In this document: positions 235 through 18,340 of the stretch, in pieces
Layout of the letters: every line of letters begins with the position of its first letter
Position numbering within the stretch: the stretch's first letter is position 1
Source: Nitrospirota bacterium
GTDB lineage: Bacteria; Nitrospirota; JACRHL01
Direction of reading: 5' to 3'
NCBI GenBank assembly: GCA_016212085.1
Contig: JACRHL010000006.1
Location: 124,001-188,000 of the forward strand
Length of the DNA: 64,000 nt
The notes under the pieces: model-generated
What the model saw: only the letters and a program-made list of their open reading frames with translations
Databases searched by the model: none
What the model was told of the DNA's origin: nothing
Made by a program: the position numbers and the translations under genes

Positions 235-299
235 GGCGCCCCGGCGTCCGCCGGACGGGCGGGCCGGGCACCGGTTCTTGTTGGAGGAGTGCGGGTTTG

Positions 300-743: not shown

Positions 744-753
744 CGCCCGCGCC

Positions 754-2142: not shown

Positions 2143-3173
2143 GCGGCGGTCCGCCGGCCGAAGCTGATCCGCGGGTCCACCAGGGTGAGCAGGATGTCGG
2201 ACAGCAGGATGGAGATCAGGGTGATGAAGGCGCCCATGGTGAACACGGCCATGATCACCGGGTAGTCCCGCGCCAGCACCGCCTGGAAGCCCAGTTGGCC
2301 GATGCCGGGGATGGAAAAGATGCTCTCGACGATCACGCTGCCGCCGATCAGCGCCGGCAGGATGCCGGCGAGGATGGTCACCAGCGGCACCAGGGAGTTG
2401 CGCAGGGCGTGCTTGTAGACCACCACCTGCTCGGACAGCCCCTTGGCGCGGGCGGTGAGCACGTAGTTCTGGCCCAGGGCCTCAAGCAGGCTGCCGCGCA
2501 TGAAGCGCGACAGCTCCGCGAAGCCGCCGTAGGACAGGATCAACACGGGCAGAAACAGGTGCCAGGCCATGTCCAGGGCGCGGGTGGCCAGGGGCCAGCC
2601 TGGCGAGTAGGCCACGTCGCGCAGGCCGCCGGGGGGGAACAGGGCCAGGTAGTCGCCGCCGCCCAGGAACACGATGGCCAGGATCGCCACCCAGAACGTG
2701 GGCAGCGAGAACAGGATGAAGGCCCCGATGGTCAGCAGCCGGTCCCACAGGGTATAGGGGTGGGTGGCGGAATAGATGCCCAGGGGCAGCGCCACCAGGT
2801 AGATGAGCAGGATCGACAGGGCGTTGAGCAGGATGGTGATGGGGAGGCGCTCGGCGATCTTGTCCCACACCGGCTGCTGGTCCTTGAAGCTCTCGCCGAA
2901 CTCCAGGGTGACCAGCTTCTCGAGCCACACCAGGTACTGCTCGTGGAGGGGCCGGTCCAGGCCGAACTGGGCGCGCCACTGGGCCACCGCGTCGTCCACC
3001 GCCATGCGGTTCTCGGTGGACAGGCCCTGCTCGGCGCCGGCGCCCAGGCCCCCGCCGGCCATCAGCTCCGCCGGGTCGCCGGGCGCCAGGTGCACGATGA
3101 GGAACGACAGCAGGGTGACCCCGATGAAGGTGGGGATCATCCACAGCAGGCGGATCAGCAGGTAGCGGCCCAT
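2139..3173 (-). CDS. peptide/nickel-type ABC transporter permease, DppB/OppB family
   Basis: A 344-residue inner-membrane permease. The N-terminal helix (LLWMIPTFIGVTLLSFLIVHLAPGDP) is the hallmark of the DppB/OppB family. A periplasmic region of about 60 residues follows, then a BPD_transp_1 core. The EAA docking loop reads YVLTARAKGLSEQVVVYKHALRN, close to the family consensus. It sits between the binding-protein gene (41 bp upstream) and the second permease (4 bp overlap downstream). Together they form the transmembrane channel of an ABC importer for peptides or similar solutes. The specificity is not readable from the permease. Confidence 0.88.
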   Translation of the reverse strand: MGRYLLIRLLWMIPTFIGVTLLSFLIVHLAPGDPAELMAGGGLGAGAEQGLSTENRMAVDDAVAQWRAQFGLDRPLHEQYLVWLEKLVTLEFGESFKDQQPVWDKIAERLPITILLNALSILLIYLVALPLGIYSATHPYTLWDRLLTIGAFILFSLPTFWVAILAIVFLGGGDYLALFPPGGLRDVAYSPGWPLATRALDMAWHLFLPVLILSYGGFAELSRFMRGSLLEALGQNYVLTARAKGLSEQVVVYKHALRNSLVPLVTILAGILPALIGGSVIVESIFSIPGIGQLGFQAVLARDYPVIMAVFTMGAFITLISILLSDILLTLVDPRISFGRRTAA

Positions 3174-3214
3174 GACTGCTCCTTATCGGCCGCGGGGCGC
3201 CCGGGGGCCAACTC

Positions 3215-4999
3215 TCACGGCGCGGGGGACTGGGCGGCGCCGTACTTCTGCTCCGCCTTGGGCACCCACCAGCGGCTCATGACCGGCCCGCCGATGGGCA
3301 GGGCCTCCACGTCGCGGAAGCGGTTCGCATGGGCCAGGGTGACCTTGCGCATGAACAGGAACGTATAGGGCTGCTCGTCGTTGAGGATGTGCTGGAACTC
3401 CCGGTAGAGGGCGGTGCGCCGTTCCGGGTCGAAGGTGCGGCGGTACTCCTCCAGGATCGCGTCCACCCGGGCGTTCCGGTAGCTGATGTGGTTGGAGCCG
3501 CCGTTCTCGATCTGCGACGAGTGCCACACCTGGTAGGCGTCCGGGGGGGTCACGCTCATGGACCAGCCCAGGATGATGGCGTCGAACTCGTGCTTGCGCA
3601 CCGCGTCCAAGAAGATGGTCCAGTCCAGCTCGCGGATCTTTGCCACGATGCCGTGCTTCTTCAGCTCGTCCTGGAGGGTGAGGGCCACGCTCTTGCGCGG
3701 CTCGTTGCCCGAGTTGATCTTGATCTCGAACACGAACGGCACGCGCCTGCCGCCGATCTCCCTGTCCAGCACGCCGTCGCCGTCGTGGTCGGCCCAGCCG
3801 GCCGCCTTGAGCAGCGCCTCGGCGGCCTTGGGGTCGAAGGGCGGCGGCTCCAGGGTTTCGTCGTACTCGGGGCGGAAGCGGTAGATGGGCCCGTCCACCA
3901 CCTGGCCCAGGCCGTGCAGGATGGTGTCCACCATGCCGTGGCGGTCGCTGAGCATGGTCATGGCGCGGCGCACGCGGGCGTCGGCAAAGATCGGGTGGTC
4001 GTTGTTCCAGCCGATGTAGGTGTAGGCCGGGGCATGGTAGGACAGCTTGGAATACTGCTCCGCGAAGCGTTTGGACGACGTTTCGCGCAGGTCCTGCATG
4101 GGGTCCAGGGTCATGGTGTCCAGGTCGCCCCCCTTCAGCGACACCAGGGCGGCGGCGGTGTTGTTGATGACCTTCAGCAGCAGCCGGTCGACATACGGGG
4201 TTTCCACGCCGGGGAACTTGTAGCCCCAGTAGGCGGGGTTGCGGTCGAGCACCACCCGCTCGCCGGTGACCCACTCGGTGAAGGTGTAGGGGCCGCTGCC
4301 CAGGGGGTTGCGGGAGAAGTCGCGGTTGAAGCGTTCGGCGAAGGCCTTGCACTGGCCGGCCGCCGCCGGCGCGCCTTCGGCAAGCTGGCGCACGCTCGCC
4401 CGCTCCAGGCGGCCGTCCGGGTCGTAGTGGTGGCGGGGCAGGATGCCGATGCCGCCCAGGGTCTCCTCGTTCTTGAAATAGGGTTCCGAGGCGGTGAAGC
4501 GCACCTGGCCGGGCCCCACCCGCTCCGCGTCGACGATGGAGGCGTAGTAGACGCGGGTGAACGGGGCGTTCACGTGCTCGCACTTGATGGCCTTGATGGA
4601 GAACAGTACGTCGTCCACGGTGACGGGCCTGCCGTCGGAGAAGGTGGCGCCGTCGCGCAGGGTGAAGGTGTATTGCAGCGTGTCGGCGGACACCACCGGG
4701 CGGGCGGCGGCCAGCAGCGGGCGCAGTTCCAGTGTCTGCGGGTCGCGGTCCAGCAGCGTCTCGACGATGTGGCCCAGCACCGAGGCGGCGGTGGCGTCGT
4801 TGCTGGTGAGCGGGTTGAGCTGCTCCGGGTCGGAGAGCAGGTGGTCCACCAGCCAGTCGCCCGTGTCCCGCGGGCCCTGGTGGGCGGCCGCCTTGGGCTG
4901 GGCGGCGCCGGGCGTCTTCGGGGCATCGGGGGCGCTACAGGCGACCGCCAGCAGCAGGGTGGCGGCCAGGGCCACCGGGCGAAGGGGCAAGTGGGGCAT
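3215..4999 (-). CDS. extracellular solute-binding lipoprotein, family 5 (peptide ABC importer)
   Basis: A 594-residue SBP_bac_5 protein. I place the start at the ATG at 4999 because it gives a clean lipoprotein signal: a basic n-region, then LLLAVACSA with the lipobox cysteine. The in-frame ATG at 5047 would add 16 unlikely residues. Hallmarks include LNPLTSNDA near the mature N-terminus, DVLFSIKAI, LGSGPYTFTEW and FDAIILGW in the C-terminal lobe. It captures a solute in the periplasm and hands it to the DppBC-like permeases encoded immediately downstream. The operon is preceded by a TTGACA-type promoter at 5090-5118. Family 5 proteins bind peptides, nickel, heme or oligosaccharides; peptides are the default guess. 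Confidence 0.85.
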   Translation of the reverse strand: MPHLPLRPVALAATLLLAVACSAPDAPKTPGAAQPKAAAHQGPRDTGDWLVDHLLSDPEQLNPLTSNDATAASVLGHIVETLLDRDPQTLELRPLLAAARPVVSADTLQYTFTLRDGATFSDGRPVTVDDVLFSIKAIKCEHVNAPFTRVYYASIVDAERVGPGQVRFTASEPYFKNEETLGGIGILPRHHYDPDGRLERASVRQLAEGAPAAAGQCKAFAERFNRDFSRNPLGSGPYTFTEWVTGERVVLDRNPAYWGYKFPGVETPYVDRLLLKVINNTAAALVSLKGGDLDTMTLDPMQDLRETSSKRFAEQYSKLSYHAPAYTYIGWNNDHPIFADARVRRAMTMLSDRHGMVDTILHGLGQVVDGPIYRFRPEYDETLEPPPFDPKAAEALLKAAGWADHDGDGVLDREIGGRRVPFVFEIKINSGNEPRKSVALTLQDELKKHGIVAKIRELDWTIFLDAVRKHEFDAIILGWSMSVTPPDAYQVWHSSQIENGGSNHISYRNARVDAILEEYRRTFDPERRTALYREFQHILNDEQPYTFLFMRKVTLAHANRFRDVEALPIGGPVMSRWWVPKAEQKYGAAQSPAP

Positions 5000-5621
5000 C
5001 GGGCAGTGGTTCCGCACGGGGATCAGCAGGAATGGGGCGGGCGGCAACGGGCCAAGAAATGTGATGCCGGCCGCAAACGGTGAGCCGAAATCTAACAGAG
5101 CCCCGCAAAATGTGTCAAACCACCGGGAAATCGTGGTATTTGTTTGTGCGAAAGGGTGTTTGCCAACATTTGAAGGAGCATGGTAGCATTGCTCTCAAGG
5201 GGGGCTGGCGCTCGTGCATTCGCGGCCCGCCAATAATGAGGTTGATCTGGCCAGCACCGGCCGGGAACGGAGCGTGTTCCGCAGGCAACGGGTGCCGATT
5301 CGGCTGGAAATAGAATTCGGGTTTTTGCCGGCCTCCGCCCCATTGGTGGAACAAGGTATTCAACGCGCCCTCCATACTGTCAGGGGTGGCGCGGGACCGG
5401 GGCGGCCGGCGGTTTTGGATTTTTCGAGGTTACGGTCGACATGACCGAGTTTCCCGCCCGCCGTGAGCGCACGGCCGGTGGCCGCCCTGCCCTTGGTGCA
5501 AGGGGCCGCCGCATTCCAGGAACCGGCTTTCCGGCTGCCCCGGCGGCGGCAGGGGAGTCGTCCCATCTCGCCGAATCCATCCTTCCCGAGCCACTCGTTT
5601 CCGCCGCATCCGCCTGACGTC
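5000..5621. other. 622-bp intergenic region between divergent importer operon and yacG
   Basis: No convincing gene is seen here. The left end holds the minus-strand promoter of the importer operon. The region is noticeably more A/T-rich between 5080 and 5200 than its surroundings, as expected for promoter DNA. On the plus strand TTGCCA (5160-5165) and TAGCAT (5184-5189), spaced 18 bases, could serve yacG and the cobalamin operon, but the match is weak. Short open frames at 5180-5236 (18 codons, behind GAAGGAG) and 5441-5617 (58 codons, ending just before yacG) have no recognisable protein features. No cobalamin riboswitch box was found. Confidence 0.5.
5090..5118 (-). promoter_or_regulatory. 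sigma70-like promoter for the peptide importer operon
   Basis: On the minus strand a perfect TTGACA (5118-5113) is followed, after 17-18 bases, by TTAGATT (5095-5089). Read with 18-base spacing the -10 is TAGATT, which matches the consensus at four of six positions. The predicted start near 5083 gives a leader of about 84 nt before the ATG at 4999. Confidence 0.55.
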
Positions 5622-5822
5622 ATGCGGATCACCTGCCCCACCTGCCGACAGGCCACCACGTGGGAGGAAAACAAGCACCGCCCGTTCTGTTCGGAGCGGT
5701 GCCGTTTGATCGATTTGGGGCAATGGGCCACGGAAGGGTATGCCATACCCGGTGACCCGGCCCCCGAAAACAGCGAGCATTTCGAGGACGCCGGCCGATC
5801 GCCGGAAGCACCGGGAACCTGA
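5622..5822 (+). CDS. yacG: DNA gyrase inhibitor YacG
   Basis: A 66-residue zinc protein from ATG 5622. The four zinc ligands are CPTC (Cys5, Cys8) and CSERC (Cys23, Cys27), followed by RLIDLGQW, the family signature. In E. coli YacG binds the GyrB subunit and blocks DNA binding by gyrase. The disordered C-terminal half ([10 protein letters not shown]...) has the usual YacG character. The open frame continues upstream to 5463, but those residues are Pro/Ser-rich and not YacG-like. It lies 62 bp before the cobalamin operon and may share its transcript. Length and motif make the identification firm. Confidence 0.9.
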
Positions 5823-5884: not shown

Positions 5885-7867
5885 ATGGCAAAGGAAATCT
5901 ATCTGATCGGCGTCGGCCCGGAAGGGCGCGACTCGCTGGTCGGCAAAACCCTCGACATCATCCGGCACAGCCACCTGATCGTGGGTGGCAAGCGCGTCAT
6001 CAACCAGTTCGAGGATCTGGGCGTGCCCACCTTCGCGATGACCGCCAACCTGCGGCAGCTGGTGGAAGTGATCGGCCTGGCCGAGGACGCGGTGGGCGAC
6101 GGGCGCGAGATCGTCCTGCCCGCCGACCGCCGGGGCGAGTCGGGCTTCGACGATGACGACGACGAGGGCTGCGCCGACGACGACGGCGGGTCCGGAGGCG
6201 GGTCCGACGACGGTGACGACGGCGACGATGACGACGGCGGCGACGACACGGATGACGACGTGGCGGCCGGCGAGGATGCGCCGGCGGCGGAGGGTTCCGG
6301 GGAGCCCCGCCGCCGTGACGGCCGCCGCCGCCGCGGGCGCCGCCGGCCGTCGCCGCGCAACCGCGGACGTGGCCAGGGCGAGGGGGGCGACGCGCCGGCC
6401 GCATCGGCCATCAGCGACAACCCGGATGCGGGCTTCTCCGTCGAGGTGAACCCCAGGCCCGCCGACGACGCGGACGACGACGGCGACGGGGACGACCCGG
6501 GTGACGCCGCCGTGGCGGTGCAGACCGGGCCCGGCTACGGCGTGGCGGAAAACGCCTATGTCCCGGCGGACGGCCTGCCGCACGCTGGCGGCATGGATGA
6601 CGACAGCGTGCCGGTGACGCGCGCGCCCCACGCGGGCGACACGGCCAAGGTGTCCAGGCGCACCAACGTGCCGGTGGCGCGCATCGCGCTGCTGGTGGCG
6701 GGCGACCCCAACTTCTACGGCCTGTCCAAGTTCCTGTTGGAGCGCTTCAACAAGGATGAGATCCACATCATCCCGCACATCAGCGCCATGCAGCTGGCGT
6801 TCGCGGCCATCAAGGAGCCGATGAACGACGCGGCCATCACCTCGTCCGCCGGCCGCAACGTGGACCGGTTGATCCGCGTGGTGCGCCAGAACACCAAGAT
6901 CGGCATCTTCACCGACAAGCGGCGCAGCCCGCGCGCGGTGGCCAAGCTGCTCACCAAGCACGGCATCGAGGCCCAGTGCTACGTGTGCCAGGACCTGGGC
7001 ACGGCGCGGGAGCGCATCATCATGGGGTCGCTGGAGGAGATCGAGAAGAAGAACTTCTCGCCCCTGTCCATCATGATCCTGTTCAAGCCCGTGACCGAGG
7101 AGCCCGCCGCCGCCGCCGCCGACGACCGGGGCCGCGCCCAGCGGGACCGTGAGCGCGACCGCGACCGGGATCGCGACCGGGATCGGGGCGAGCGCAAGGG
7201 CGACGGCGCCAAGGGCGACGCCGTCAAGGAACGGCCCCGCGACCGCAACCTGCGCGACCTGCCGCCCGCCAGCCAGGTGCCCAAGTACGAGCTGGTCACC
7301 AGCCTGGGCATCCCGGACGAGATGCTGTCCGCGCGGCCGGAGAAGATCATGCGCGCCGAGATGCGCGTATTGGCCCTGTCCAAGCTGCAACTCAAGAAGG
7401 ACCACCGCATGTGGGACGTGGGGGCCGGCTGCGGCGCCCTGAGCGTGGAGGCGGCGCGGGTCGCCCACGCCGGCGAGGTGTTGGCCGTGGAGCGCGACTT
7501 CTCGCAGATCCGCAACATCTACGAGAACCTCAAGGGCTTCGGCCTGTCCAACGTGACGGTGATGGAGGGCGACATCGAGCAGATGTACGACAGCCTGCCC
7601 GAGCCGGACCGCATCTTCATCGGCGGCTGCGGCGGCCACATGAAGGCGATCCTGGAGGGGTGCCTGAAGCGCCTCAAGCCCGGCGGCATCCTGGTGCTCA
7701 ACGCCACCACCCTGGACGCCCTGGCGGAGGTGCAGCAGACCCTGAAGGCGCAGCGCCTCAAGCACGACATGGTGATCGTCAACATCTCGCGCACCGTGGA
7801 GCGCGGCGGGCTGGAGTACTTCGAGGGCTTCAACCCGTCCTACCTCATCACCACCGTCAAGGACTGA
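5885..7867 (+). CDS. cobL: fused precorrin-6Y C5,15-methyltransferase / decarboxylase (CbiE-CbiT) with a long acidic insertion
   Basis: A 660-residue cobalamin-biosynthesis enzyme that methylates C5 and C15 of the corrin ring and decarboxylates the acetate at C12. The start MAKEIYLIGVGPEG is the usual CbiE N-terminus. CbiE is split: residues 1-75 carry the first strands, residues about 84-258 are a low-complexity insertion, and the domain resumes at about 259 with VARIALLVAGDPNFYG. The insertion has Asp/Gly runs, then Arg-rich, then Asp-rich stretches. A second disordered linker (403-465) holds an alternating Arg-Asp repeat. CbiT occupies about 466-660, with the SAM site DVGAGCGALSVEAA at 511-524. 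Normal CobL is roughly 400 residues, so about 240 residues are extra. Its stop overlaps the start of cbiF by one base (TGATG). Confidence 0.88.
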   Translation: MAKEIYLIGVGPEGRDSLVGKTLDIIRHSHLIVGGKRVINQFEDLGVPTFAMTANLRQLVEVIGLAEDAVGDGREIVLPADRRGESGFDDDDDEGCADDDGGSGGGSDDGDDGDDDDGGDDTDDDVAAGEDAPAAEGSGEPRRRDGRRRRGRRRPSPRNRGRGQGEGGDAPAASAISDNPDAGFSVEVNPRPADDADDDGDGDDPGDAAVAVQTGPGYGVAENAYVPADGLPHAGGMDDDSVPVTRAPHAGDTAKVSRRTNVPVARIALLVAGDPNFYGLSKFLLERFNKDEIHIIPHISAMQLAFAAIKEPMNDAAITSSAGRNVDRLIRVVRQNTKIGIFTDKRRSPRAVAKLLTKHGIEAQCYVCQDLGTARERIIMGSLEEIEKKNFSPLSIMILFKPVTEEPAAAAADDRGRAQRDRERDRDRDRDRDRGERKGDGAKGDAVKERPRDRNLRDLPPASQVPKYELVTSLGIPDEMLSARPEKIMRAEMRVLALSKLQLKKDHRMWDVGAGCGALSVEAARVAHAGEVLAVERDFSQIRNIYENLKGFGLSNVTVMEGDIEQMYDSLPEPDRIFIGGCGGHMKAILEGCLKRLKPGGILVLNATTLDALAEVQQTLKAQRLKHDMVIVNISRTVERGGLEYFEGFNPSYLITTVKD

Positions 7868-8697
7868 TGACCGCGACCGATCCAGCCCCCCTCGCCGAGG
7901 GGGGCTGGGACCGCATCTTCGTGGTGGGCGCCGGGCCCGGCGCGCCGGACCTGATCACCGTGCGCGGCCTGCGCCTGCTGGAGCGGGCCGATCTGGTGGT
8001 ATACGCCGGCTCCCTGGTGCCCACGGCGTTGCTGGATGCGGTGCCGGAGGGGGCGCGGGTGGTGGACAGCGCCGGCATGGCCCTGCGCGAGATCGTCGCC
8101 ACCCTGGCCGACGGCTTCAATGCCGGCATGCGCGTGGTGCGCCTGCAAACCGGGGATACAAGCCTGTTCTCCGCCCAGATGGAGCAGATGCGCGCCCTGG
8201 CGGAGCGGGGCATTCCGGTGGAGATCGTCCCCGGCGTCAGCTCCGCCAACGCCGCCGCCGCCGTGCTGGGGGTGGAGTTCACCCTGCCGGAGATTTCGCA
8301 GACGGTCATCTATTCCCGCGCCGCCGGGCGCACGCCGGTGCCGGAGGGGGAAAATCTGCCCTCCCTGGCCGCCCACGGCGCCACCCTGGTGCTGTTCCTG
8401 AGCGTGCAGATGATCCACCGGGTGGTGGAGCAGCTCGCCCAGGGGGGATACGCCCCGGACACCCCGGTGGCGGTGGTGCACAAGGCCACCTGGCCCGAGC
8501 AGCGGATCGTGCGCGGCACCCTGGAAAATATCGTGGAGCGGGTGCGCGACGCGGGCATCAAAATGACCGCCCTGATCGTGGTGGGCCGGGTGCTGGAGGG
8601 GGCCACCCTGCCGGAAGCGGAATTCCACTACTCCAAGCTGTACGACCCCGGCTTCGGCCACGGCTTCCGCCGCCGCGCCGGGGCGGCCGGGGTCTAG
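7867..8697 (+). CDS. cbiF: precorrin-4 / cobalt-precorrin-4 C11-methyltransferase
   Basis: A 276-residue SAM-dependent uroporphyrin-III methylase superfamily protein that methylates C11 of the corrin ring (CbiF/CobM). Motifs in order: FVVGAGPGAPDLITVRG (SAM loop, about 18-34), VVYAGSLVP, VRLQTGDTSLFS, VEIVPGVSSANAAAAVLG, and VAVVHKATWPEQRIVRGTL near the end. The length matches the family. The ATG overlaps the preceding stop (TGATG), so it is translationally coupled to the CbiE-CbiT fusion. The anaerobic CbiF label is preferred because a CbiX cobaltochelatase is encoded at 35359, which implies early cobalt insertion. The enzyme family itself does not settle that point. Confidence 0.92.
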   Translation: MTATDPAPLAEGGWDRIFVVGAGPGAPDLITVRGLRLLERADLVVYAGSLVPTALLDAVPEGARVVDSAGMALREIVATLADGFNAGMRVVRLQTGDTSLFSAQMEQMRALAERGIPVEIVPGVSSANAAAAVLGVEFTLPEISQTVIYSRAAGRTPVPEGENLPSLAAHGATLVLFLSVQMIHRVVEQLAQGGYAPDTPVAVVHKATWPEQRIVRGTLENIVERVRDAGIKMTALIVVGRVLEGATLPEAEFHYSKLYDPGFGHGFRRRAGAAGV

Positions 8698-8704
8698 TTC
8701 CCCC

Positions 8705-9259
8705 GTGGCCACGCCCGTTGGCCACGGCCTGGTGGGGGTGGCGGCCTACCTGCTCGTGCGGGGCGGCGCGCCGTCCCGGTCCGGCGGCGTGGCGCTGCTG
8801 GCCGCCTGCGTGGTGCTGGCCAACCTGCCCGACCTGGACCTGCTGTTTCCCATCCTGCTGGGGGAGGGGCTGAACCCCGCCTACCACCGCGCCGCCACCC
8901 ACACGGGGGCGTTCGCCCTGCTGGTGGGGGCCCTGTGCGCCGTGGGGGCGCTCATCCGCCGCCCGTGCGAGGCGCGGCGGGGTGTGCTGATCGGCCTGGG
9001 CGCATTCGGCCTGGTGGCCAGCCATTTGGCGCTGGACCTGCTCACGCACGATAATAGGGCGCCGTATGGCGTGCCCCTGTGGTGGCCGCTGGACGGCGCC
9101 TACGTGATCGCCGGCTGGACGCCGTTCCTGCCGACCCGCCACGGGTCGCTGTCGGCGCTGCTGTCGGCGGGCAACCTGATGGCCGTGGTGTGGGATGCGC
9201 TGTTGATGTCGCCGATCGTTCTCGCCTGTTACCTGTGGAGCCGCCGTGGGCGCGCCTAG
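8705..9259 (+). CDS. membrane-bound metal-dependent hydrolase, YdjM/DUF457-like
   Basis: A 184-residue membrane protein from GTG 8705, 7 bp after cbiF. It has the layout of YdjM/LexA-binding inner-membrane (DUF457) proteins: an N-terminal ATPVGHGLVG with His7, the NLPDLDLLFP acidic motif after the first helices, YHRAATHTGAF in the middle and ASHLALDLLTHDN later. The His/Asp residues in hydrophobic helices are the presumed metal ligands. Four or so TM segments are visible. Proteins of this family are called metal-dependent hydrolases, but a substrate is not established. Its position inside a cobalamin operon, with overlap to the next gene, suggests co-expression and no more. Confidence 0.75.
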   Translation: MATPVGHGLVGVAAYLLVRGGAPSRSGGVALLAACVVLANLPDLDLLFPILLGEGLNPAYHRAATHTGAFALLVGALCAVGALIRRPCEARRGVLIGLGAFGLVASHLALDLLTHDNRAPYGVPLWWPLDGAYVIAGWTPFLPTRHGSLSALLSAGNLMAVVWDALLMSPIVLACYLWSRRGRA

Positions 9260-9854
9260 GGCCGTCCTGCTGCTGGCGGCGCTGCTGGCGCTGTGCGCCC
9301 CCGCCTGGGCGGCCCCCACGGCGCCCACGGCGGTGCCGCCGGAGGTGGCGGTCTACGTCAAGGTGGACGAGCTGGCGGTGCTGTGGGGCTTCCGCGACAA
9401 GGACACCGGCGCCTACCCCCAACCCGGCGACCCGCGCTACGAGGAGTACCGGCTGCGCTGGCAGACCCTCGTCCACGAGGTATTTAGGCAGATCCGCCTG
9501 CGCGTGCCGCGCCACATTACCATCCGCCCCGCCACCCAGGGCGACCCGGCGGGCCTGCACGTCGACGTGACCGTGGCCGACATGTCCACCACCTGCGCCG
9601 GCCACGACTACTACAAATACCTGTGGGTGCGCACCTACCAGGACGACGGCATCACCACCAACTGGGACGGCCTGGGGGTGCGCTCCGACACGGTGGTGGA
9701 GCGGAGCATGGACGCCCCCCAGCGGGTGAAGGCCGATCTGGACGCATGGGTACAGATATGGGGCCAGGTGCCCTACCTGCGCGTCACCCGCGATGCCACG
9801 CCGGCCCGTCCCGCCCCCGCCCCGGCAAACGGGGCGGAGGCCCCGGCGCCGTGA
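9246..9854 (+). CDS. secreted protein of unknown function in the cobalamin operon
   Basis: A 202-residue protein beginning at GTG 9246, overlapping the previous gene by 14 bp. The first 23 residues are a clear Sec signal peptide (LLLAALLALCAPAWAA). The mature part has mixed alpha/beta character with motifs VYVKVDELAVLWGFRD, HITIRPATQG and GHDYYKYLWVRTYQDDG. It contains one Cys in the mature region (TTCAGHDYY). The C-terminal 25 residues are Ala/Pro-rich and probably disordered. I do not recognise the family. It lies between a membrane hydrolase-like gene and cobQ, and its TGA overlaps the cobQ GTG, so it is translated with the corrin genes. A periplasmic location is inferred from the signal peptide. 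Confidence 0.65.
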   Translation: MGAPRAVLLLAALLALCAPAWAAPTAPTAVPPEVAVYVKVDELAVLWGFRDKDTGAYPQPGDPRYEEYRLRWQTLVHEVFRQIRLRVPRHITIRPATQGDPAGLHVDVTVADMSTTCAGHDYYKYLWVRTYQDDGITTNWDGLGVRSDTVVERSMDAPQRVKADLDAWVQIWGQVPYLRVTRDATPARPAPAPANGAEAPAP

Positions 9855-11329
9855 GCGGCACGGGGGCACCGGGCCGCGCCCGGCCGCTGATGGTGCTGGG
9901 CACCAGCTCGCACGTGGGCAAGAGCCTCATCACCGCCGCCCTGTGCCGCATCTTCAGGCGCCGGGGGCTCAAGGTGGCGCCGTTCAAGGCCCAGAACATG
10001 TCCAACAACGCCGCCGTGTGCGAGGGGGGCGAGATCGGCCGCGCCCAGGCCCTGCAAGCGCGGGCGGCGGGCATCGCGCCGTCGGTGCACATGAACCCCA
10101 TTTTGCTCAAGCCGGTGGGGGAGCAGCGCTCCCAGGTGGTGGTGGCGGGCCGGGTGGCGGGCACCATGGACGTGGCCGCGTACCACCGCTTCAAGGAGCA
10201 GCAAGGGCGCCGCATCGTCACCGAGCACTACCGGGCCCTGGCGGACACGGTGGACGTGGTGGTCATCGAGGGCGCCGGCAGCCCGGTGGAAATCAACCTC
10301 AAGGCCCACGACCTGGCCAACCTGTGGGTGGCCGACATGGCCGACGCCCCGGTGCTGCTGGTGGGCGACATCGACCGGGGCGGCGTGCTGGCCGCCCTGG
10401 TGGGCACTATCGAGCTGATGGCCCCCCACGAGCGCAAGCGGGTGGCGGGTTTCGTCATCAACAAGTTCCGGGGCGACGAATCGCTGCTCAAGCCGGCCCT
10501 GGACTACCTGGACGCCCGCTACGGCGTGCCCACCCTGGGGGTGATCCCGCATATCGACCACCACCTGCCCGAGGAGGACGGCGTGGGGGTGCGCGACCGG
10601 GCCGCCCGCGCCGGCCGCTGCGTGAACGTGGGCATCGTGCGCCTGCCGCGCATCGCCAACTTCACCGACTTCGACCCGTTCGCCGTGGAGCCGGACGTGG
10701 CGGTGAGCTACGTTTCCCGCCCGGAGCAGGCGCGCGGCCTGGACCTCCTGATCCTGCCCGGCAGCAAGGCCACCATCGCCGACCTGCACTGGCTGCGCGA
10801 ACGCGGCCTGGACCGGGCCATTCTGGACCACGCCGCGTCCGGCCTGCCCCTGATCGGCATCTGCGGCGGCTACCAGATGCTGGGCCGCCGCATCGACGAC
10901 CCGCACGGGGTGGAGACCGGCGGCGCCGCCGACGGCCTGGGGCTGCTGGACGTGGTCACCACCATGGCGGCGGACAAGCGCTGCGCCGCCGCCACCTACA
11001 CCCCGGCGGGCACGCGCCTGGGGGCGGCGCCGGTGAGCGGCTACGAGATCCACATGGGGCGCAGCGCCGCCGCCTCCGGCGAGGCGTTGTTCGCCGACGC
11101 GCCGGACGGCACCGGCGTGGCCCGGGGCAACGTGTGGGGCGCCTACCTGCACGGCCTGTTCGACAACGACGCCGCGCGCCGTGCCGTGCTGGCCCCGCCG
11201 CGCGCCCTGCGCGGCCTGCCGGAGCCGCCCCCGGTCTGCTATGCCGACACCCTGGAACAGGCCATCGACGCCTTTGCCGACACGGTGGCCGCCCACCTGG
11301 ACCTGGAGGCCCTGCATGGGCTGGTTTGA
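9851..11329 (+). CDS. cobQ: cobyric acid synthase (adenosylcobyric acid synthase)
   Basis: A 492-residue glutamine-dependent amidotransferase that amidates four side-chain carboxylates of adenosylcobyrinic acid a,c-diamide. The N-terminal synthetase domain has a P-loop-like GTSSHVGKS and the CobQ signature FKAQNMSNNAAV. EGAGSPVEINL and DIDRGGVLAAL follow. The C-terminal class I glutaminase-like domain carries GICGGYQMLG with the nucleophile Cys338 and a late AYLHGLFDN (His). The GTG at 9851 overlaps the preceding stop (GTGA); an ATG at 9890 is possible but would trim the N-terminus close to the P-loop. It overlaps the next gene, cbiB, by 14 bp. Length and motifs are typical. Confidence 0.93.
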   Translation: MSGTGAPGRARPLMVLGTSSHVGKSLITAALCRIFRRRGLKVAPFKAQNMSNNAAVCEGGEIGRAQALQARAAGIAPSVHMNPILLKPVGEQRSQVVVAGRVAGTMDVAAYHRFKEQQGRRIVTEHYRALADTVDVVVIEGAGSPVEINLKAHDLANLWVADMADAPVLLVGDIDRGGVLAALVGTIELMAPHERKRVAGFVINKFRGDESLLKPALDYLDARYGVPTLGVIPHIDHHLPEEDGVGVRDRAARAGRCVNVGIVRLPRIANFTDFDPFAVEPDVAVSYVSRPEQARGLDLLILPGSKATIADLHWLRERGLDRAILDHAASGLPLIGICGGYQMLGRRIDDPHGVETGGAADGLGLLDVVTTMAADKRCAAATYTPAGTRLGAAPVSGYEIHMGRSAAASGEALFADAPDGTGVARGNVWGAYLHGLFDNDAARRAVLAPPRALRGLPEPPPVCYADTLEQAIDAFADTVAAHLDLEALHGLV

Positions 11330-12275: not shown

Positions 12276-13387
12276 CGCCGTTCCAGAAGCACGGCGGCAA
12301 CCTGACGGAGCTGGCCCGCCACGTCACCCTGCCGCCCACGGTGCACGACTTTTCCGTGAACACCCACCCGTTCGGCCCGCCGCAGCCGGCCCTGGCGGCG
12401 GCGCGGGCGGCGCTGGCGCACTCGGACCGCTATCCGGACCCGGAGCCCACGGCGCTGCTGGCCGCCCTGGCCGCCCACCACGCCCTGCCGGCGGACCACT
12501 TCGTGGCGGGCAACGGCGCCACGGAGCTGATCGACCTGATCCCCCGCGCCCTGGGGGCGGGAACGTCCCTGGTGGTGGCCCCGGCCTTCGGCGAGTATGC
12601 GGATGCCACGGCGCGGGCGGGGGGGCGCACCGTCACCGTGCGCCGCGAGCGGCTGGACGCCTTCCCCACCGGGCCGGTGGTGGACGCCATCGCCCGCCAC
12701 CAGCCCGGCCTGGTATGGCTGTGCAGCCCCAACAACCCCACCGGCGAGCGCCTGGCCGACCCGGCCCTGGAGGCGATCCTCGGCGCCCCCGGCGGCCACG
12801 TGGTGGTGCTGGACGAGAGCTTCGTGGAGTACGACCCCCTGGGCAGCCGCATCGGCCGGGTGCCGGCGCACCCGAACCTGATCGTGCTGCGCGGCTTCAC
12901 CAAGTTCTTCGCCCTGGCGGGGCTGCGCGTGGGCTATCTGGCCGCCGCGCCGGCCCTCATCGGGCGGCTGTGCGCCCTGCTGCCGCCGTGGCGGGTGAAC
13001 CGCCCGGCCCAGGCCGCCGCCGTGGCCTGCCTGGGGCTGGACGGCTACGTGCCGCGCGAGCGGGCGCGGGTGGATGCGCTCAAGAGGGGCTTCATGCGCG
13101 AGCTGACCGCCATGGGCCTTGGGCCGCTGCCGTCCCAGGCCAACTACCTGCTGTGCCGCCTGCCGGACGGGTGCGACCCGGACCGGTTGTTCGTGGACCT
13201 GGCCCGGTCCGGCTTTCTGGTGCGCCACTGCCGCTCCTTCGGCCTGCCGGGCCACCTGCGCCTGCGGGTGCACCGGGAGGCGGAGAACCGGGCCCTGCTC
13301 GACATCCTGCCCGGCGCCATCCGGCGCGGCACCGCCCGGACCGCCCGGGCCGGGGAGGCGCCGGATGGACCCATCGGCGCGCCCTGA
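12272..13387 (+). CDS. threonine-phosphate decarboxylase (PLP-dependent, CobD/CobC)
   Basis: A 371-residue fold-type I aminotransferase-like enzyme. It decarboxylates L-threonine-O-3-phosphate to the aminopropanol phosphate that CbiB attaches. It begins KHGGNL, has the DFSVNTHPFGPP motif, GNGATELIDLI, LCSPNNPTGER, and VLDESFVEYDP with the cofactor-binding Asp. The PLP lysine is in GFTKFFALAGLRVGY (Lys211), and the C-terminal substrate Arg is in LRLRVHR. Start ATG 12272 overlaps the cbiB stop by 4 bp. Its stop (13385-13387) overlaps the ATG of a cytochrome c gene by one base. The family is called CobD in Salmonella and CobC in Pseudomonas, so I leave the symbol empty. Confidence 0.9.
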   Translation: MTPFQKHGGNLTELARHVTLPPTVHDFSVNTHPFGPPQPALAAARAALAHSDRYPDPEPTALLAALAAHHALPADHFVAGNGATELIDLIPRALGAGTSLVVAPAFGEYADATARAGGRTVTVRRERLDAFPTGPVVDAIARHQPGLVWLCSPNNPTGERLADPALEAILGAPGGHVVVLDESFVEYDPLGSRIGRVPAHPNLIVLRGFTKFFALAGLRVGYLAAAPALIGRLCALLPPWRVNRPAQAAAVACLGLDGYVPRERARVDALKRGFMRELTAMGLGPLPSQANYLLCRLPDGCDPDRLFVDLARSGFLVRHCRSFGLPGHLRLRVHREAENRALLDILPGAIRRGTARTARAGEAPDGPIGAP

Positions 13388-14091
13388 TGCTTGACGCAAC
13401 GCGCGCCGCCCTGTGCGCCATCGCCTGCATGTTCCTGTGGCTCGCCGGTCCCGCCTTTGCGGGCGGGGCGGAGGTGTTCAGGGCGGCGGGCTGTGCCGGT
13501 TGCCACCAGGTCACGCCCCCCCCGGCGGGCTTCGACCTGGACGGCCGGCTGGCGGAGAAGGGCCCCAACCTGTGGTACGCGGGCAGCAAGTACCGCCCCG
13601 GCTGGATCGCCCGCTGGCTGGCGAATCCGAGCCCCATCAGCGGCATCCGCCACGACAGCCACCTGCCCAGCACCGACCTTTCGCCCCACCCGGCGCTGGG
13701 CGGAGAGGGGGGCAGGGCGGTGGCCGCGTACCTGGAGTCCCTCACCGATTCCGCCATGGCCACGGGTGTCGTCGACACGGCGTCGCCCATGCCGCGCATG
13801 ACCAGCATCCAGGGGCGGATGCTGTTCGGCAAGGAGCAGCAGTGCTTCGCCTGCCACAAGACCCTCACCCGCTACGGCGTGCTGGTGGGGGGCGAGAGCG
13901 GCCCCACCCTGGCCAACGCCACGGAGCGCCTGAACCCGGACTGGATCCTCGCCTTCCTGATGGACCAGCGGCGCTACGTCCCGGTGACGCGCATGCCCAT
14001 CTACCAGGGCGACACCTTCACGGACTATGGCGACGGGCAGATGCGCATCCTGGCGCGCTACATCGCCGACATGGGGAAGGCCGCGCCATGA
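13387..14091 (+). CDS. diheme c-type cytochrome
   Basis: A 234-residue protein from ATG 13387, overlapping the decarboxylase stop by one base. Residues 1-25 form a signal peptide ending GPAFA. Two heme-binding motifs are present: CAGCH at 36-40 and CFACH at 153-157. Each is followed by a segment rich in Gly/Pro, with Met residues in the middle and near the C-terminus (VTRMPIY) as candidate axial ligands. The architecture is two cytochrome c domains in tandem, with RPGWIARWLANP in the first and NPDWILAFLMDQRRYV in the second. It is probably periplasmic. It is tied to the cobalamin operon by the overlapping junction, which is unusual. Confidence 0.85.
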   Translation: MLDATRAALCAIACMFLWLAGPAFAGGAEVFRAAGCAGCHQVTPPPAGFDLDGRLAEKGPNLWYAGSKYRPGWIARWLANPSPISGIRHDSHLPSTDLSPHPALGGEGGRAVAAYLESLTDSAMATGVVDTASPMPRMTSIQGRMLFGKEQQCFACHKTLTRYGVLVGGESGPTLANATERLNPDWILAFLMDQRRYVPVTRMPIYQGDTFTDYGDGQMRILARYIADMGKAAP

Positions 14092-14483
14092 GGGCCCCCG
14101 CCGCGCTGCTGGCGCTCATGCTGCTTGCGGGGCCCGCCGCCGCCTGGGCGGATGCGCCGCTGCCCAGCGTGGAGCGCAACTTCCGCTTCCTGTGCGCCCA
14201 GTGCCACGGCCCCAGGGGCGACGCCACGGGGGTGAACGCCTCCAAGCAGTTCGAGGTGCTGCCCGCGAACCTCACGGACGGCCAGTACATGGCCAAGTTC
14301 ACCGACAAGCAGATCTTCCGCACCCTCACCTACGGCGGGCCGGCCAACAACCTGTCGTCCCTCATGCCGCCGTGGGGCAACCGGCTTTCCGAGGCGGAGC
14401 GCTGGGATCTGGTGCGCTACATCCGCGGGTTGTGCCACTGCAAGGGCATCGGCGAGGAGGCGCCCCCGCCGCCGGGAAGTTGA
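14088..14483 (+). CDS. monoheme c-type cytochrome
   Basis: A 131-residue protein whose ATG overlaps the stop of the diheme cytochrome by 4 bp. Residues 1-22 are a signal peptide. A single heme motif CAQCH lies at 36-40, followed by GPRGDATG. SLMPPWGNRLSE supplies the axial Met and WDLVRYIRGL the C-terminal helix, a standard class I cytochrome c plan. The tail contains an extra CHC not in CXXCH form. It is the last gene of the run that starts at 5885. It probably works with the preceding diheme protein in periplasmic electron transfer. Confidence 0.85.
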   Translation: MRAPAALLALMLLAGPAAAWADAPLPSVERNFRFLCAQCHGPRGDATGVNASKQFEVLPANLTDGQYMAKFTDKQIFRTLTYGGPANNLSSLMPPWGNRLSEAERWDLVRYIRGLCHCKGIGEEAPPPPGS

Positions 14484-14529: not shown

Positions 14530-15624
14530 ATGGGCCCAATCGATCTGTTCACCCCCATCCACCTGGGGCCGTACACCCTGGCCAACCGCATGGTGATGGC
14601 GCCCCTCACCCGGAACCGGGCCGGGGCGGGCAATGTGCCCCACGGCCTGAACGCCCTCTACTACGCCCAGCGCGCCACGGCGGGGCTGATCGTCAGCGAG
14701 GCCACGCAGGTCTCGCCGCAGGGGGTGGGCTATCCGCACACCCCCGGCATCCACGGCGCCGAACAGGTGGCCGGCTGGCAGGACGTGACCGGCGCCGTGC
14801 ACCACGCCGGCGGGCGCATCTTCCTGCAACTCTGGCACGTGGGGCGCATCTCGCACCCGTCGCTGCAACCGGGCGGGGCGCTGCCGGTGGCGCCGTCGGC
14901 CATCCGGCCCGCCGGGGAGGCGATCACCTACCAGGGGATGCTGCCGTTCGTCACCCCCCGCGCCCTGGAAACCGGCGAGCTGCCCGGCATCGTGGACGAC
15001 TACCGCCGGGCGGCGGTGCACGCCCTGGCGGCGGGGTTCGACGGGGTGGAGGTGCACGCCGCCAACGGCTACCTGCTGGACCAGTTTCTGCGTGACGGCA
15101 GCAACCGGCGCACCGACGCCTATGGCGGGTCGCTCGCCAACCGGGCGCGGCTGCTCATGGAGGTGGTGGACGCGGTGACCGGCGTGTGGGGGCCGGAGCG
15201 GGTGGGGGTGCGCATCTCCCCCGTGAACCCGTTCAACGACATGCACGACAGCGATCCGCAGGGGCTGTTCGAATTCGTGGCCGGGGCCCTCTCGGCCTTG
15301 GGGATAGCCTACCTGCACGGGGTGGAGGGGGCCATCGGCGGCGTGGCCCGGCAGACGGTGGACCTTGGTCGCATCCGCGCCGCCTTCGGCGGGCTGTACA
15401 TGGCCAACGGCGGCTACGACAAGGCCCGCGCCGGCCGGGCGCTGGCATCCGGGGCGGCGGACCTGGTCAGCTTCGGCGTGCCGTTCCTGGCCAACCCGGA
15501 CCTGGTGGCACGCTTCCGGGCGGACGCCCCCCTGAACACCCCCGACGCGGCCACCTTCTACGGCGGCGGCGCCGAGGGATATACGGACTATCCCACCCTG
15601 GAACAGGCCCGGGCGGCGGGGTAG
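14530..15624 (+). CDS. Old Yellow Enzyme family alkene reductase (NemA-like)
   Basis: A 364-residue FMN-dependent NAD(P)H:flavin oxidoreductase. It starts at ATG 14530 behind GGGAGGCACGTC. Family features: LFTPIHLGPYTLANRMVMAPLTR, then LQLWHVGRISHP, the active-site HAANGYLLDQFL (His, Asn and Tyr), SNRRTDAYGGSLANR and a late GGYDKARA/LVSFGVPFLANPDL phosphate-binding region. These enzymes reduce activated alkenes, nitro compounds and nitrate esters in the cytoplasm. The physiological substrate is not known. It follows the cytochrome pair by 46 bp and is convergent with the HAD gene, whose stop begins on the next base (15625). Confidence 0.9.
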   Translation: MGPIDLFTPIHLGPYTLANRMVMAPLTRNRAGAGNVPHGLNALYYAQRATAGLIVSEATQVSPQGVGYPHTPGIHGAEQVAGWQDVTGAVHHAGGRIFLQLWHVGRISHPSLQPGGALPVAPSAIRPAGEAITYQGMLPFVTPRALETGELPGIVDDYRRAAVHALAAGFDGVEVHAANGYLLDQFLRDGSNRRTDAYGGSLANRARLLMEVVDAVTGVWGPERVGVRISPVNPFNDMHDSDPQGLFEFVAGALSALGIAYLHGVEGAIGGVARQTVDLGRIRAAFGGLYMANGGYDKARAGRALASGAADLVSFGVPFLANPDLVARFRADAPLNTPDAATFYGGGAEGYTDYPTLEQARAAG

Positions 15625-16323
15625 TCACCCCCCCTCGGGCGGCGCCAGCAGCACGCCGGGGATCAGGTCGCCCACGCCGGCCACCGCCGCGTACGGCCCC
15701 GCCGGGCGCGGCGGCTGGTGGGAGTTGGGCTGGGTCACCTGGATCAGCCCGCCCATGCCGTAGGCCGCCGCGGTGCCCAGGTTGGGCAGGGAGTCCTCGA
15801 TGAGCACCGCCCGCTCCGGGCGGTAGTCCACCACCCGGTGCAGGCGCTCCCAGAAGCCCGGCTCTTCCTTGCCCATGCCGATATCGAAGGCCGATACCGT
15901 CCCGTCCAGGTATTTCCCCAGGCCGCTGGCGGCCAGCTTGAGGCGCATGGCCTTGGGGTGGGCGTTGGTGACCAGCACCCGGCGCCGCCCGGTGTTGCCC
16001 AGGGTGGTCAAAAACTCCGGCACCAGCGGGTGCAGGGCGATCCTGCCCGCCTGGCGCACCTTGAGGTGGGTGACGTCGAACCCCACCCGGTGGCTCCAGT
16101 AGTCCACGTCGTACCAGTTCAGGGTGCCCTCCTGCTCCCGGTACCAGGCCAGCAGCATGTCGCGGGCGGACACCCGGTCCAGGTCGTGCACGGCGGCGTA
16201 GCGGGCGGGGAGGTGCTCCATCCAGAAGTCGTCGTCGAAGTAGAGGTCCAGCAGCACGCCGTCCATGTCCAAAAGGACGGTGCCAGCGCGGCGCCAGTCG
16301 GCGCTGTGGGTGACGATGACCAT
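15625..16323 (-). CDS. HAD-family hydrolase, YrfG-like GMP/IMP nucleotidase
   Basis: A 232-residue haloacid dehalogenase superfamily protein. Motif I is LLDMDGVLLDL with the nucleophile Asp, motif II is VLVTNAHPKA, the motif III Lys lies near RLKLAASGL or GMGKEEP, and motif IV is VLIEDSLPNLGTA. The cap region WYDVDYWSHRVGFDV resembles YrfG, which dephosphorylates purine nucleotides. It is soluble and cytoplasmic. The gene is alone on the minus strand between plus-strand neighbours, so it has its own transcript. The nucleotidase substrate is taken from the YrfG resemblance and is an inference. Confidence 0.8.
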   Translation of the reverse strand: MVIVTHSADWRRAGTVLLDMDGVLLDLYFDDDFWMEHLPARYAAVHDLDRVSARDMLLAWYREQEGTLNWYDVDYWSHRVGFDVTHLKVRQAGRIALHPLVPEFLTTLGNTGRRRVLVTNAHPKAMRLKLAASGLGKYLDGTVSAFDIGMGKEEPGFWERLHRVVDYRPERAVLIEDSLPNLGTAAAYGMGGLIQVTQPNSHQPPRPAGPYAAVAGVGDLIPGVLLAPPEGG

Positions 16324-16506
16324 GGCTCAAGACGGTACCGCGCCTACGGCGGGGGGCGCAAGCGGCGCGGTGACCGGGGCCCCTCCGGCCGCTCCGCCCC
16401 GCCATTTTTCGTTGCCCAAAAATTCCACTTATGAGCCTTCGGGAAATTCCGATAGGAATGGCAACAGTTGGCCGATCGGTCCAACGCATTTCAGGGAGAG
16501 GAAATC

Positions 16507-17652
16507 ATGTTTGAAACAAAGAGATGCAGGTCTTGGCTGCTCATGCTTTGCGGCCTCGTCGTGACCATGGCGGTGCCCGATGTGTCCCAGGCCATGCCGG
16601 CCTTCGCGCGGGCCAACAAGGTGCCGTGCACGACCTGCCACGTGCAGTTTCCCAAGCTCAACGACTTTGGCATGGCGTTCAAGCAGAACGGCTACCGCAT
16701 GGAGGGCAAGAAGGGGGAGTTCGTCTGGACCAAGGACAACCTGCCGCTGGCGTCGGTGGCCACCATCACCTACGAGACGGTTGACACGGGCGCGGACGAG
16801 ACCGCGACCGTCGACCGCCGCGCCCTGGAGGTGTTCAGCGGCGGCAGCCTGGGGCCGGAGATCTCCTACTTCTTCGACTTCGGCTTTTCATCCGACCAGT
16901 TGACCACGAGCCCCGGCGGCGATACGGTCGATGTCACCACCGCGGCGCCGGGCGGCACGTTCCTCATCCTCAACAACCTGCTGCCGGACAACCTGGCGAA
17001 CCTGCGCGTGGGTGTGATGAGCAACGAGTTCTTCTACCTGTCGGTTCCGCGCCGCACCACCCTCAGCGACTACAAGGCGCCGGTGTCGGTGGACCATACC
17101 GGCATCGAGCTGAACGGCATCGCCAAGGGCAACCTGCGCTACGCCGTCGGCTTCGGCAACGACGAGATGGTGGGCGTGACCGACGTCACCAACAACATGC
17201 GCGGCGGGTTCGGCTGGGCCACCTATAACGTGGCCGGCCAGACCGTGGGCGCCCGGTTCATCGCCGCCAAGGCGGGTGCCGCAAAATCCGCCGACGAAAC
17301 CCACACCCAGTGGGACGTGAACGCGGACCTGCACCTGGGCCCGGCCAACCTGGCCGTGGGCTACTACATGCAGGACAACGTGGCCGGTGTCCAGGACGAC
17401 AAGCAGACCAACCTGCTGGCCGAGGTGGTGTATCCGCTCACGCCCAAGGTGCTGCTGACCGGCCGCTACGAGGCCCAGGATACGGAAACGGGCGGCGCCG
17501 AGGTGGCCGGGACGGACCAGATCCTCGTGGTCAACACGTCCCTGTTCCTGCTGCCCAACGTGAACCTCCAGGCGGAGTTCAGCACCGCCGACAACGAGGA
17601 GTCCGCGACCGAGGAGAACCGCTTCATCCTCGGGTTCCGGGTGGGTATCTGA
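16507..17652 (+). CDS. fused outer-membrane cytochrome c / porin, Cyc2-like
   Basis: A 381-residue protein from ATG 16507 behind AGGGAGAGG. Residues 1-29 are a signal peptide. Directly after it comes AMPAFARANKVPCTTCH (heme motif at 41-45), then VQFPKLNDFGMAFKQNGYRM. The A-P-FAR...CxxCH...FP.LN.FG..F..NGY arrangement is the one described for Cyc2, the outer-membrane iron oxidase in which a single-heme cap is fused to a beta-barrel. The remaining roughly 310 residues alternate hydrophobic and polar positions with short turns, as in a 14-16-strand barrel, and the protein ends FILGFRVGI. It is somewhat shorter than published Cyc2 proteins. The gene stands alone and ends at a strong terminator. 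The electron donor is not known. Confidence 0.7.
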   Translation: MFETKRCRSWLLMLCGLVVTMAVPDVSQAMPAFARANKVPCTTCHVQFPKLNDFGMAFKQNGYRMEGKKGEFVWTKDNLPLASVATITYETVDTGADETATVDRRALEVFSGGSLGPEISYFFDFGFSSDQLTTSPGGDTVDVTTAAPGGTFLILNNLLPDNLANLRVGVMSNEFFYLSVPRRTTLSDYKAPVSVDHTGIELNGIAKGNLRYAVGFGNDEMVGVTDVTNNMRGGFGWATYNVAGQTVGARFIAAKAGAAKSADETHTQWDVNADLHLGPANLAVGYYMQDNVAGVQDDKQTNLLAEVVYPLTPKVLLTGRYEAQDTETGGAEVAGTDQILVVNTSLFLLPNVNLQAEFSTADNEESATEENRFILGFRVGI

Positions 17653-17750
17653 TCACAGGGCGCGGCGGGCCACGGACGGCCCGCCCGCGCCCCGGCCTTC
17701 CGGCCCGCGCCGGCACATGGACGTGCCGGGCGGGCGGAGTCAACACCAAA

Positions 17751-17779
17751 GGGCCGCCCCACGGGGCGGCCCTTTTTTT
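17751..17779 (+). terminator. rho-independent terminator after the cytochrome-porin gene
   Basis: A perfect 10-bp stem, GGGCCGCCCC (17751-17760) and GGGGCGGCCC (17763-17772), is followed by seven T residues. It lies about 100 bp past the stop codon. Confidence 0.92.
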
Positions 17780-17887: not shown

Positions 17888-18340
17888 ATGGACAAGAAAC
17901 TCGCCCGGCTCGCCCCGGACCTCACCAAAGGCTATCCGCGCTCCCCGCGCGACACGCTGGGCGGCTTCGTCATCGCCGCCCGCAGCGTGGACAAGTGCCG
18001 CGCCGAGCTGGCGGGCACCCAGGGGGAATACACATATCAGCCCTGCGGCCTGACCAGCATGTTCCTGGACTTCGCCGGCATCTCCGCCGGGGCCCTGCGC
18101 GACTTCGTCGCCACCGGCGCCGACGACCAGGCGGTGGCGGCGTGGATCGGCGAACACGCCAAGGTGCGGGACCGGCTGGAGATCATCCGCTGGAACAACC
18201 GCATGCGCGAGCTGCGCCTGAGCGACCTGCCGGACGACATCCAGGCGATGATGGAGGACTACATCCCCCAAAACCTGCCCAAGCACCGCCCCGTGTACGT
18301 GTTTTTCGACGTGTACGACCTGGAGGAGGGGCGGCTGTAG
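17888..18340 (+). CDS. DUF5069 domain protein
   Basis: A 150-residue soluble protein starting at ATG 17888. The N-terminus LAPDLTKGYPRSPRDTLGG is characteristic of DUF5069 proteins, and SVDKCRAELAG, TGADDQAVAAWI and IIRWNNRMRELRLSDLPD fit the rest of the domain. No signal peptide or membrane segment is present. It follows a terminator and precedes the trp genes by 127 bp, so it is probably a single-gene unit. The biochemical role of the family is not known. Confidence 0.75.
   Translation: MDKKLARLAPDLTKGYPRSPRDTLGGFVIAARSVDKCRAELAGTQGEYTYQPCGLTSMFLDFAGISAGALRDFVATGADDQAVAAWIGEHAKVRDRLEIIRWNNRMRELRLSDLPDDIQAMMEDYIPQNLPKHRPVYVFFDVYDLEEGRL

Follow-up and report, generated by a model that had tools for sequence, protein, structure and literature searches.

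The closest described systems are the Cyc2 proteins, fused cytochrome-porins (Keffer et al., 2021, PMC8406198) that have been divided into clusters 1–3 (McAllister et al., 2020, PMC7029218). Some bacteria draw electrons from dissolved iron with proteins of this type. As published, a Cyc2 protein has a signal peptide, one CxxCH motif with AXPXFAR[Q/K][T/Y] upstream and PXL downstream of it, a length of at least 365 aa and a 16-strand barrel (PMC8406198). Fe(II) oxidase activity has been published for three members, all different from the protein described here, and the function of Cluster 3 is the one that the authors rate least certain (PMC8406198). In FeGenie, Cluster 3 comes under the heading 'probable iron oxidation and possible iron reduction', and it is found in Geobacter iron reducers (PMC7005843). 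Cyt572 of Leptospirillum, a Cluster 3 protein with the same fused heme-barrel architecture, carries an unusual heme (PMC8406198).

Both this protein type and the presence of Cyc2 homologs in Nitrospirota are already published. More specifically, homologs of the same type have been described within this phylum from nitrifying Nitrospirales and from Ca. Manganitrophaceae, in a paper whose accessible part gives no account of the sub-clade presented below or of a linkage to a bc-type complex (PMC9040806). Here we add the departure of a Nitrospirota clade from the published upstream motif, the separation of its barrel from the barrels of Cluster-1-like proteins, and the operon linkage seen in its relatives.

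A cyc2-like gene and its predicted product

The gene under study lies in a stretch of 64,000 nucleotides of Nitrospirota DNA (hereafter the window; contig JACRHL010000006.1, positions 124,001 to 188,000). Its reading frame is open throughout, and its third-position GC of 0.93 is at the level expected for a coding gene of the window's genome. The protein starts with MFETKRCRSWLLMLCGLVVTMAVPDVSQA / MPAFARANKVPCTTCHVQFPKLNDFGMAFKQNGYRM and continues into ~300 beta-rich residues (Table 1). The n, h and c regions of a putative signal peptide are clear by inspection (KRCR / WLLMLCGLVVTMAV / SQA). The original prediction, a Cyc2-like fused cytochrome-porin, had pointed to the CTTCH motif and to the segment FPKLNDFGMAFKQNGY downstream; both are seen in the translation, the latter at residues 48–63, 3' of CTTCH. 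Exactly one CxxCH is present in the protein, at residue 41; when its sequence was shuffled 200,000 times, only 77 of the shuffles contained a bare CxxCH. The combined string PxFAR-x5-CxxCH-x3-PxL likewise occurs once, at residue 31.

Table 1. Features of the cyc2-like gene, its predicted product and its neighbors (positions in the window)
Feature	Position	Strand	Evidence
Di-heme cytochrome c, 234 aa	13387..14091	+	PF00034/PF13442
Mono-heme cytochrome c, 131 aa	14088..14483	+	PF13442
Old Yellow Enzyme family	14530..15624	+	PF00724
HAD hydrolase, divergent upstream neighbor	15625..16323	-	PF00702
Shine-Dalgarno-like GGGAGAGGA, just 5' of ATG	16494..16502	+	Sequence reading
cyc2-like gene; predicted fused mono-heme cytochrome c and 16-strand porin, 381 aa	16507..17652	+	ORF, AlphaFold2, Foldseek
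Putative signal peptide, residues 1–29, predicted cleavage after SQA	16507..16593	+	By eye; A29 invariant in A3
Short cytochrome domain, residues 30–80	16594..16746	+	Column entropy
CTTCH heme c attachment motif, residues 41–45	16627..16641	+	C41, C44 and H45 do not vary across the 25- and 21-sequence alignments
Predicted 16-strand beta barrel, residues 82–380	16750..17646	+	AlphaFold2, Foldseek porin folds, PF13609
Strand 5–6 loop (position of porin constriction loop L3), residues 176–193, with conserved R182, T185 and Y189	17032..17085	+	Alignment, AlphaFold2
Terminator-like hairpin, 12-bp stem, 4-nt loop, T-tract to 17779	17748..17775	+	-26.6 kcal/mol, z -2.5
DUF5069 gene, then trp genes	17888..18340	+	PF16798

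Using the 21-ortholog alignment A3, AlphaFold2 predicted exactly 16 long strands within residues 82–380 (mean pLDDT 81.2, pTM 0.78). An earlier run on 4 sequences also gave 16 strands but was weak (pLDDT 53). Comparison of the model to the PDB with Foldseek resulted in 302 matches at E <= 0.001, to general 16-strand porins (OmpU, PorB, OmpF/OmpC, Omp32); they include 5o78 (TM 0.61/0.69), the entry that is reported to match the Cyc2 model of A. ferrooxidans best (PMC10654088). The sole Pfam match is Porin_4 (PF13609, residues 209–327, E 2.5e-6, just above its cut-off). A search of NCBIfam assigned the protein to no family, phmmer against PDB sequences returned one irrelevant weak match and nothing else, and no relatives were found in the plasmids and viral contigs searched. 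The beta structure that the original prediction had read from the sequence is thus reproduced as a predicted 16-strand barrel, and the fold matches are porins instead of unrelated non-porin cytochromes. We regard the fused cytochrome-porin architecture as almost certain.

The heme domain is the best-conserved part of the protein (mean column entropy of 1.11 bits versus 1.2–1.9 in barrel segments), and across the clade it contains no second invariant Met or His. Outside the cytochrome domain, conservation is highest at residues 106–122 and in the loop after strand 5 (about 171–193). In porins, the loop at this place is constriction loop L3; by analogy, the strand 5–6 loop of this protein may line the pore.

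The gene stands alone in the window, as had been predicted, and the same is true of both orthologs from its own family (f1), which have no redox neighbors either and are adjoined by tadA- and dnaX-like genes. The upstream neighbors named in the original prediction, an Old Yellow Enzyme and a HAD gene, were confirmed by Pfam. Downstream, the hairpin at 17748 parts the cyc2-like gene from the next gene at 17888; a consensus terminator scan did not report this hairpin, apparently because the stem absorbs 3 of the 7 T. We also considered an operon with the two cytochromes at 13387–14483 and rejected it: the Old Yellow Enzyme gene and the divergent HAD gene lie between, and the same-family relatives do not have these cytochromes nearby. 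The 131-aa cytochrome of this pair is 25–33% identical to the cytochrome that is linked to the cyc2-like genes of relatives.

Departure from the published motif and placement among Cyc2-like proteins

The window protein shares with Cyc2 the single CxxCH near the N-terminus (residue 41), PxL four residues 3' of it (CTTCH-VQF-PKL) and the C-terminal 16-strand porin barrel, predicted by AlphaFold2 and seconded by the PDB porin matches and PF13609. At 381 aa it is also longer than 365 aa, and its putative signal peptide, recognized by eye, would agree with Cyc2 as well. It had been described as shorter than known Cyc2, which holds in relation to most of these proteins (mostly 400 or more residues) but not to the published floor of 365 aa (PMC8406198).

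The upstream motif is where the protein departs. Its AMPAFARAN fits the first seven positions of AXPXFAR[Q/K][T/Y], while the last two are AN in place of [Q/K][T/Y]. Because AN is common to all three same-family orthologs (the window protein, L003/L005 and L006), it is not a sequence error. The published filter is strict: among 55 collected Cyc2-like sequences, which are nearly all from this phylum, 17 contain P.FAR[QK][TY] and 38 do not. Since half of the upstream motif is absent, we name the protein Cyc2-like and not a certified Cyc2; its mode of working is unaffected by this distinction.

We compared profiles of the barrel only using hhalign, with Cluster labels assigned by motif and not by the published HMMs. 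In this comparison, the clade of the window protein matched the Cluster-1-like proteins (L012/L014/L023/L106) with a probability of 9.8%, versus 96.6–99.9% for the f25/f28, L009, QT-type, KY-type and L102 groups. Full-length profiles of the clade and the Cluster-1-like set gave 98.9–99.6%, because the cytochrome domain is shared. By its barrel the clade therefore does not group with Cluster 1, the neutrophilic iron oxidase type. The two sets of barrels are too divergent to be connected by sequence, and function is thus not transferable to the clade from Cluster 1 or the neutrophilic iron oxidases.

Judged from these comparisons, the window protein agrees with Cyc2 in all features tested but one and belongs to a poorly characterized side branch of the Cyc2-like proteins. 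The proposed Cyc2 identity accordingly stands for the architecture and the AXPXFAR half of the motif, and falls short at [Q/K][T/Y] and at the barrel profile. Two further differences from Cyc2 are the stand-alone gene and a function that, for this clade, is predicted. A likely Leptospirillum protein among the non-Cluster-1 rows of our tree (L093), which is probably Cyt572, also departs from the motif (FSRSY); it differs from the window protein in its far greater length (515 aa counted from the motif region) and its very long branch.

Relatives in Nitrospirota and their operon linkage

Orthologs of the window protein are spread across its own phylum. Some Cyc2-like match is present in 147 of 396 sampled Nitrospirota genomes, and near-full-length matches occur in about 25 of the 396, from families f1, f8, f9, f18, f25, f28 and f29. 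The window protein is 52% identical to a relative in the MAG Nitrospirota bacterium 8_1_July_SF_Bin21. In a proxy tree built from phylum members, it forms one group with the two further f1 proteins (SH-aLRT 99), and nearest to this group are a pair from f8 and a set from f18 and f9 (support of 81 by a quick method). Family f9 is probably Nitrospira-like, f10 probably corresponds to Leptospirillum, and f8 seems to lie near Ca. Troglogloeales.

Relatives in other families have redox neighbors. In f18 and f9, a mono-heme cytochrome c of 152–212 aa is encoded directly upstream of the cyc2-like gene in 11 loci, and one gene further upstream in a twelfth (L061). At L059, L060, L062 and L063, this cytochrome c is preceded on the same strand by genes for a Rieske protein and for a cytochrome b fused to a c domain, an assignment confirmed by Pfam at L062 (PF00033, PF00032 and PF00034 for the cytochrome b-c fusion; PF00355 for the Rieske protein). 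Several f9 loci (L064, L066–L069) have a membrane protein with one heme motif in place of the cytochrome c, and in f8 (L055, L056) a related mono-heme cytochrome c is found one or two genes downstream. Our targeted search, confined to open-access literature, gave no description of such a linkage of cyc2-like genes, a weak indication that it is new.

As a separate observation, a protein of 208–245 aa with one CxxCH, apparently a multi-pass membrane protein, recurs in f9 and f8: it is encoded two genes upstream at the same f9 loci, L064 and L066–L069, and one gene downstream at L075. The L067 copy has no Pfam match.

Through this gene order, the clade is tied to electron transfer in the periplasm and at the level of the quinones. 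It also bears on the suggestion in the original prediction that small cytochromes c nearby could indicate an extracellular electron-uptake route. The pair in the window bears on this suggestion only indirectly, being separated from the gene by the Old Yellow Enzyme and HAD genes and not conserved beside it in the same-family relatives; the mono-heme cytochromes c adjoining the gene in other families are the stronger evidence.

The same data can be set against the idea that the protein is a plain porin whose heme is a vestigial or structural plug outside respiration, acting for example in gating or sensing. The isolation of the gene in its own family, with no conserved redox neighbor, and the heme domain's lack of a second invariant Met or His would fit such a plug, but neither the strong conservation of this domain nor the way in which cytochrome c and bc-complex genes recur beside the gene in other families does, and we consider the idea highly improbable.

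Electron uptake from a donor other than iron, such as Mn(II), a sulfur or nitrogen compound or an organic shuttle, would suit the presence of relatives in many Nitrospirota families of differing genome types, as well as a barrel that differs from the Cluster-1-like one. Furthermore, the study on Ca. Manganitrophaceae names Cyc2 as a candidate for Mn(II) oxidation (PMC9040806). Against this, no linked sulfur, nitrogen or manganese gene adjoins the cyc2-like gene within the window. We think a non-iron donor unlikely.

Redox genes of the window's genome

Another Cyc2-like gene, a very divergent second copy, is present in the window's genome, which is 99% complete at 2.7 Mb (L002; 410–448 aa, ATAQWSRKYQVPCGTCHTVFPRLN); it is located at C15:47173-48885 (L073:7174-8886) as an ORF of 448 aa. 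A 117-aa mono-heme cytochrome c starts 12 bases after this gene. The L002 barrel is not recognizably related to that of the window protein (7.5% in the barrel-only profile comparison with the clade).

The genome contains a heme-copper oxidase, represented by one strong COX1-family match and two partial ones, and a cytochrome b-like gene, named by inspection only, near C3:57.9 kb. A citrate-binding match (PF16114) is compatible with ATP-citrate lyase and reductive-TCA autotrophy; RuBisCO is absent from the genome. Three tandem mono-heme cytochrome c genes span the start of the window (window 1-746, C23:123302-124731). Among the examined regions of this genome, this trio gives the best matches to the cytochrome that accompanies the cyc2-like gene in relatives.

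Multiheme cytochromes are encoded at two sites. At C1:24700-32740 (L079, minus strand: 9076-10647, 5901-9071 and 2743-5703), two adjoining multiheme cytochromes of 524 and 1057 aa, with about 21 and 41 CxxCH, many hemes 23 residues apart and Cytochrome_C7 repeats, stand before a protein of 987 aa that carries SPOR and TPR domains and may form a barrel at its C-terminus. This cluster is possibly a giant extracellular conduit of an unusual kind. At C1:41120-44500 (L080:120-3498), genes for two 8-heme cytochromes c and a NapC/NrfH-like protein of 198 aa (3–4 hemes) are adjacent on one strand.

In the MtoAB/PioAB/MtrCAB systems, electrons likewise cross the outer membrane through a barrel, but this barrel has 26 strands, versus 16 in the window protein, and is paired with a separate decaheme cytochrome. 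Membership of an MtrB/PioB conduit was rejected on this strand count and on a search of the window's genome for the MtrB/PioB barrel (PF11854), which gave no match.

Multiheme apparatus such as the giant cluster, the two octaheme cytochromes and the NapC/NrfH-like protein is usual in extracellular reduction. It would therefore agree with an outward flow, in which a periplasmic cytochrome c reduces the heme and the electron leaves to a small diffusible acceptor in the pore (an Fe(III) chelate or another oxidant), and so would the occurrence of Cluster 3 cyc2 in Geobacter and Rhodoferax iron reducers (PMC7005843). However, the heme-copper oxidase makes an external acceptor unneeded, and all biochemically tested Cyc2 proteins oxidize Fe(II) (PMC8406198). 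We judge electron flow to be probably inward and the outward direction to be unlikely.

Proposed electron path and its implications

We lean toward the reading that the gene encodes an outer-membrane cytochrome-porin of the Cyc2 type that takes up electrons, most likely from Fe2+. Counted in its favor are the structure and fold, the AXPXFAR-CxxCH-PxL spacing, the profile match to other Cyc2-like groups and the linkage of relatives to cytochrome c, Rieske and cytochrome b genes, together with the heme-copper oxidase, the PF16114 citrate-binding match and the three tandem mono-heme cytochromes c of the window's genome, and the Fe(II) oxidase activity published for three other Cyc2 members (PMC8406198). 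Counted against it are the absent [Q/K][T/Y] half of the motif, the barrel profile that fails to match Cluster-1-like Cyc2, the uncertain function of Cluster 3 (PMC8406198) and its occurrence in iron reducers (PMC7005843), as well as the lack of a linked electron acceptor gene in this genome.

In the path that we propose, the barrel would cross the outer membrane and the small N-terminal heme c domain would be periplasmic, at the mouth of the pore, a position suggested by porin topology and by the published description of Cyc2 (PMC8406198). A small dissolved reductant, most likely Fe2+, would enter the pore past the conserved strand 5–6 loop and hand one electron to the single heme. From there the electron would pass to a soluble mono-heme cytochrome c, which is presumably the partner in the window's genome as well, and then to a terminal oxidase or, via a bc-type complex, to the quinone pool. 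Among possible donors Fe2+ comes first, since all Cyc2 proteins that have been assayed biochemically oxidize it (PMC8406198), and we hold Fe(II) to be the physiological donor with cautious preference.

A broader suggestion, which we put forward as speculative and rather doubtful, is that the clade represents a distinct Cyc2-like lineage missed by the published motif filter, with a mono-heme cytochrome c and a bc-type complex as its ancestral partner. It would then let electrons in at the outer membrane and on to the quinone pool, feeding reverse electron flow in Nitrospirota, among them organisms for which other lithotrophic lifestyles alone are known.

Cyc2 genes are used as markers for iron oxidation by microbes, but on the Cluster 3 side their function is uncertain. 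A clade that has kept the architecture, departed from the motif and is linked in operons to cytochrome c and bc-complex genes would help to tell which Cyc2-like genes are true reporters of electron uptake. It would also give little-known Nitrospirota a further possible source of electrons, one outside the cell.
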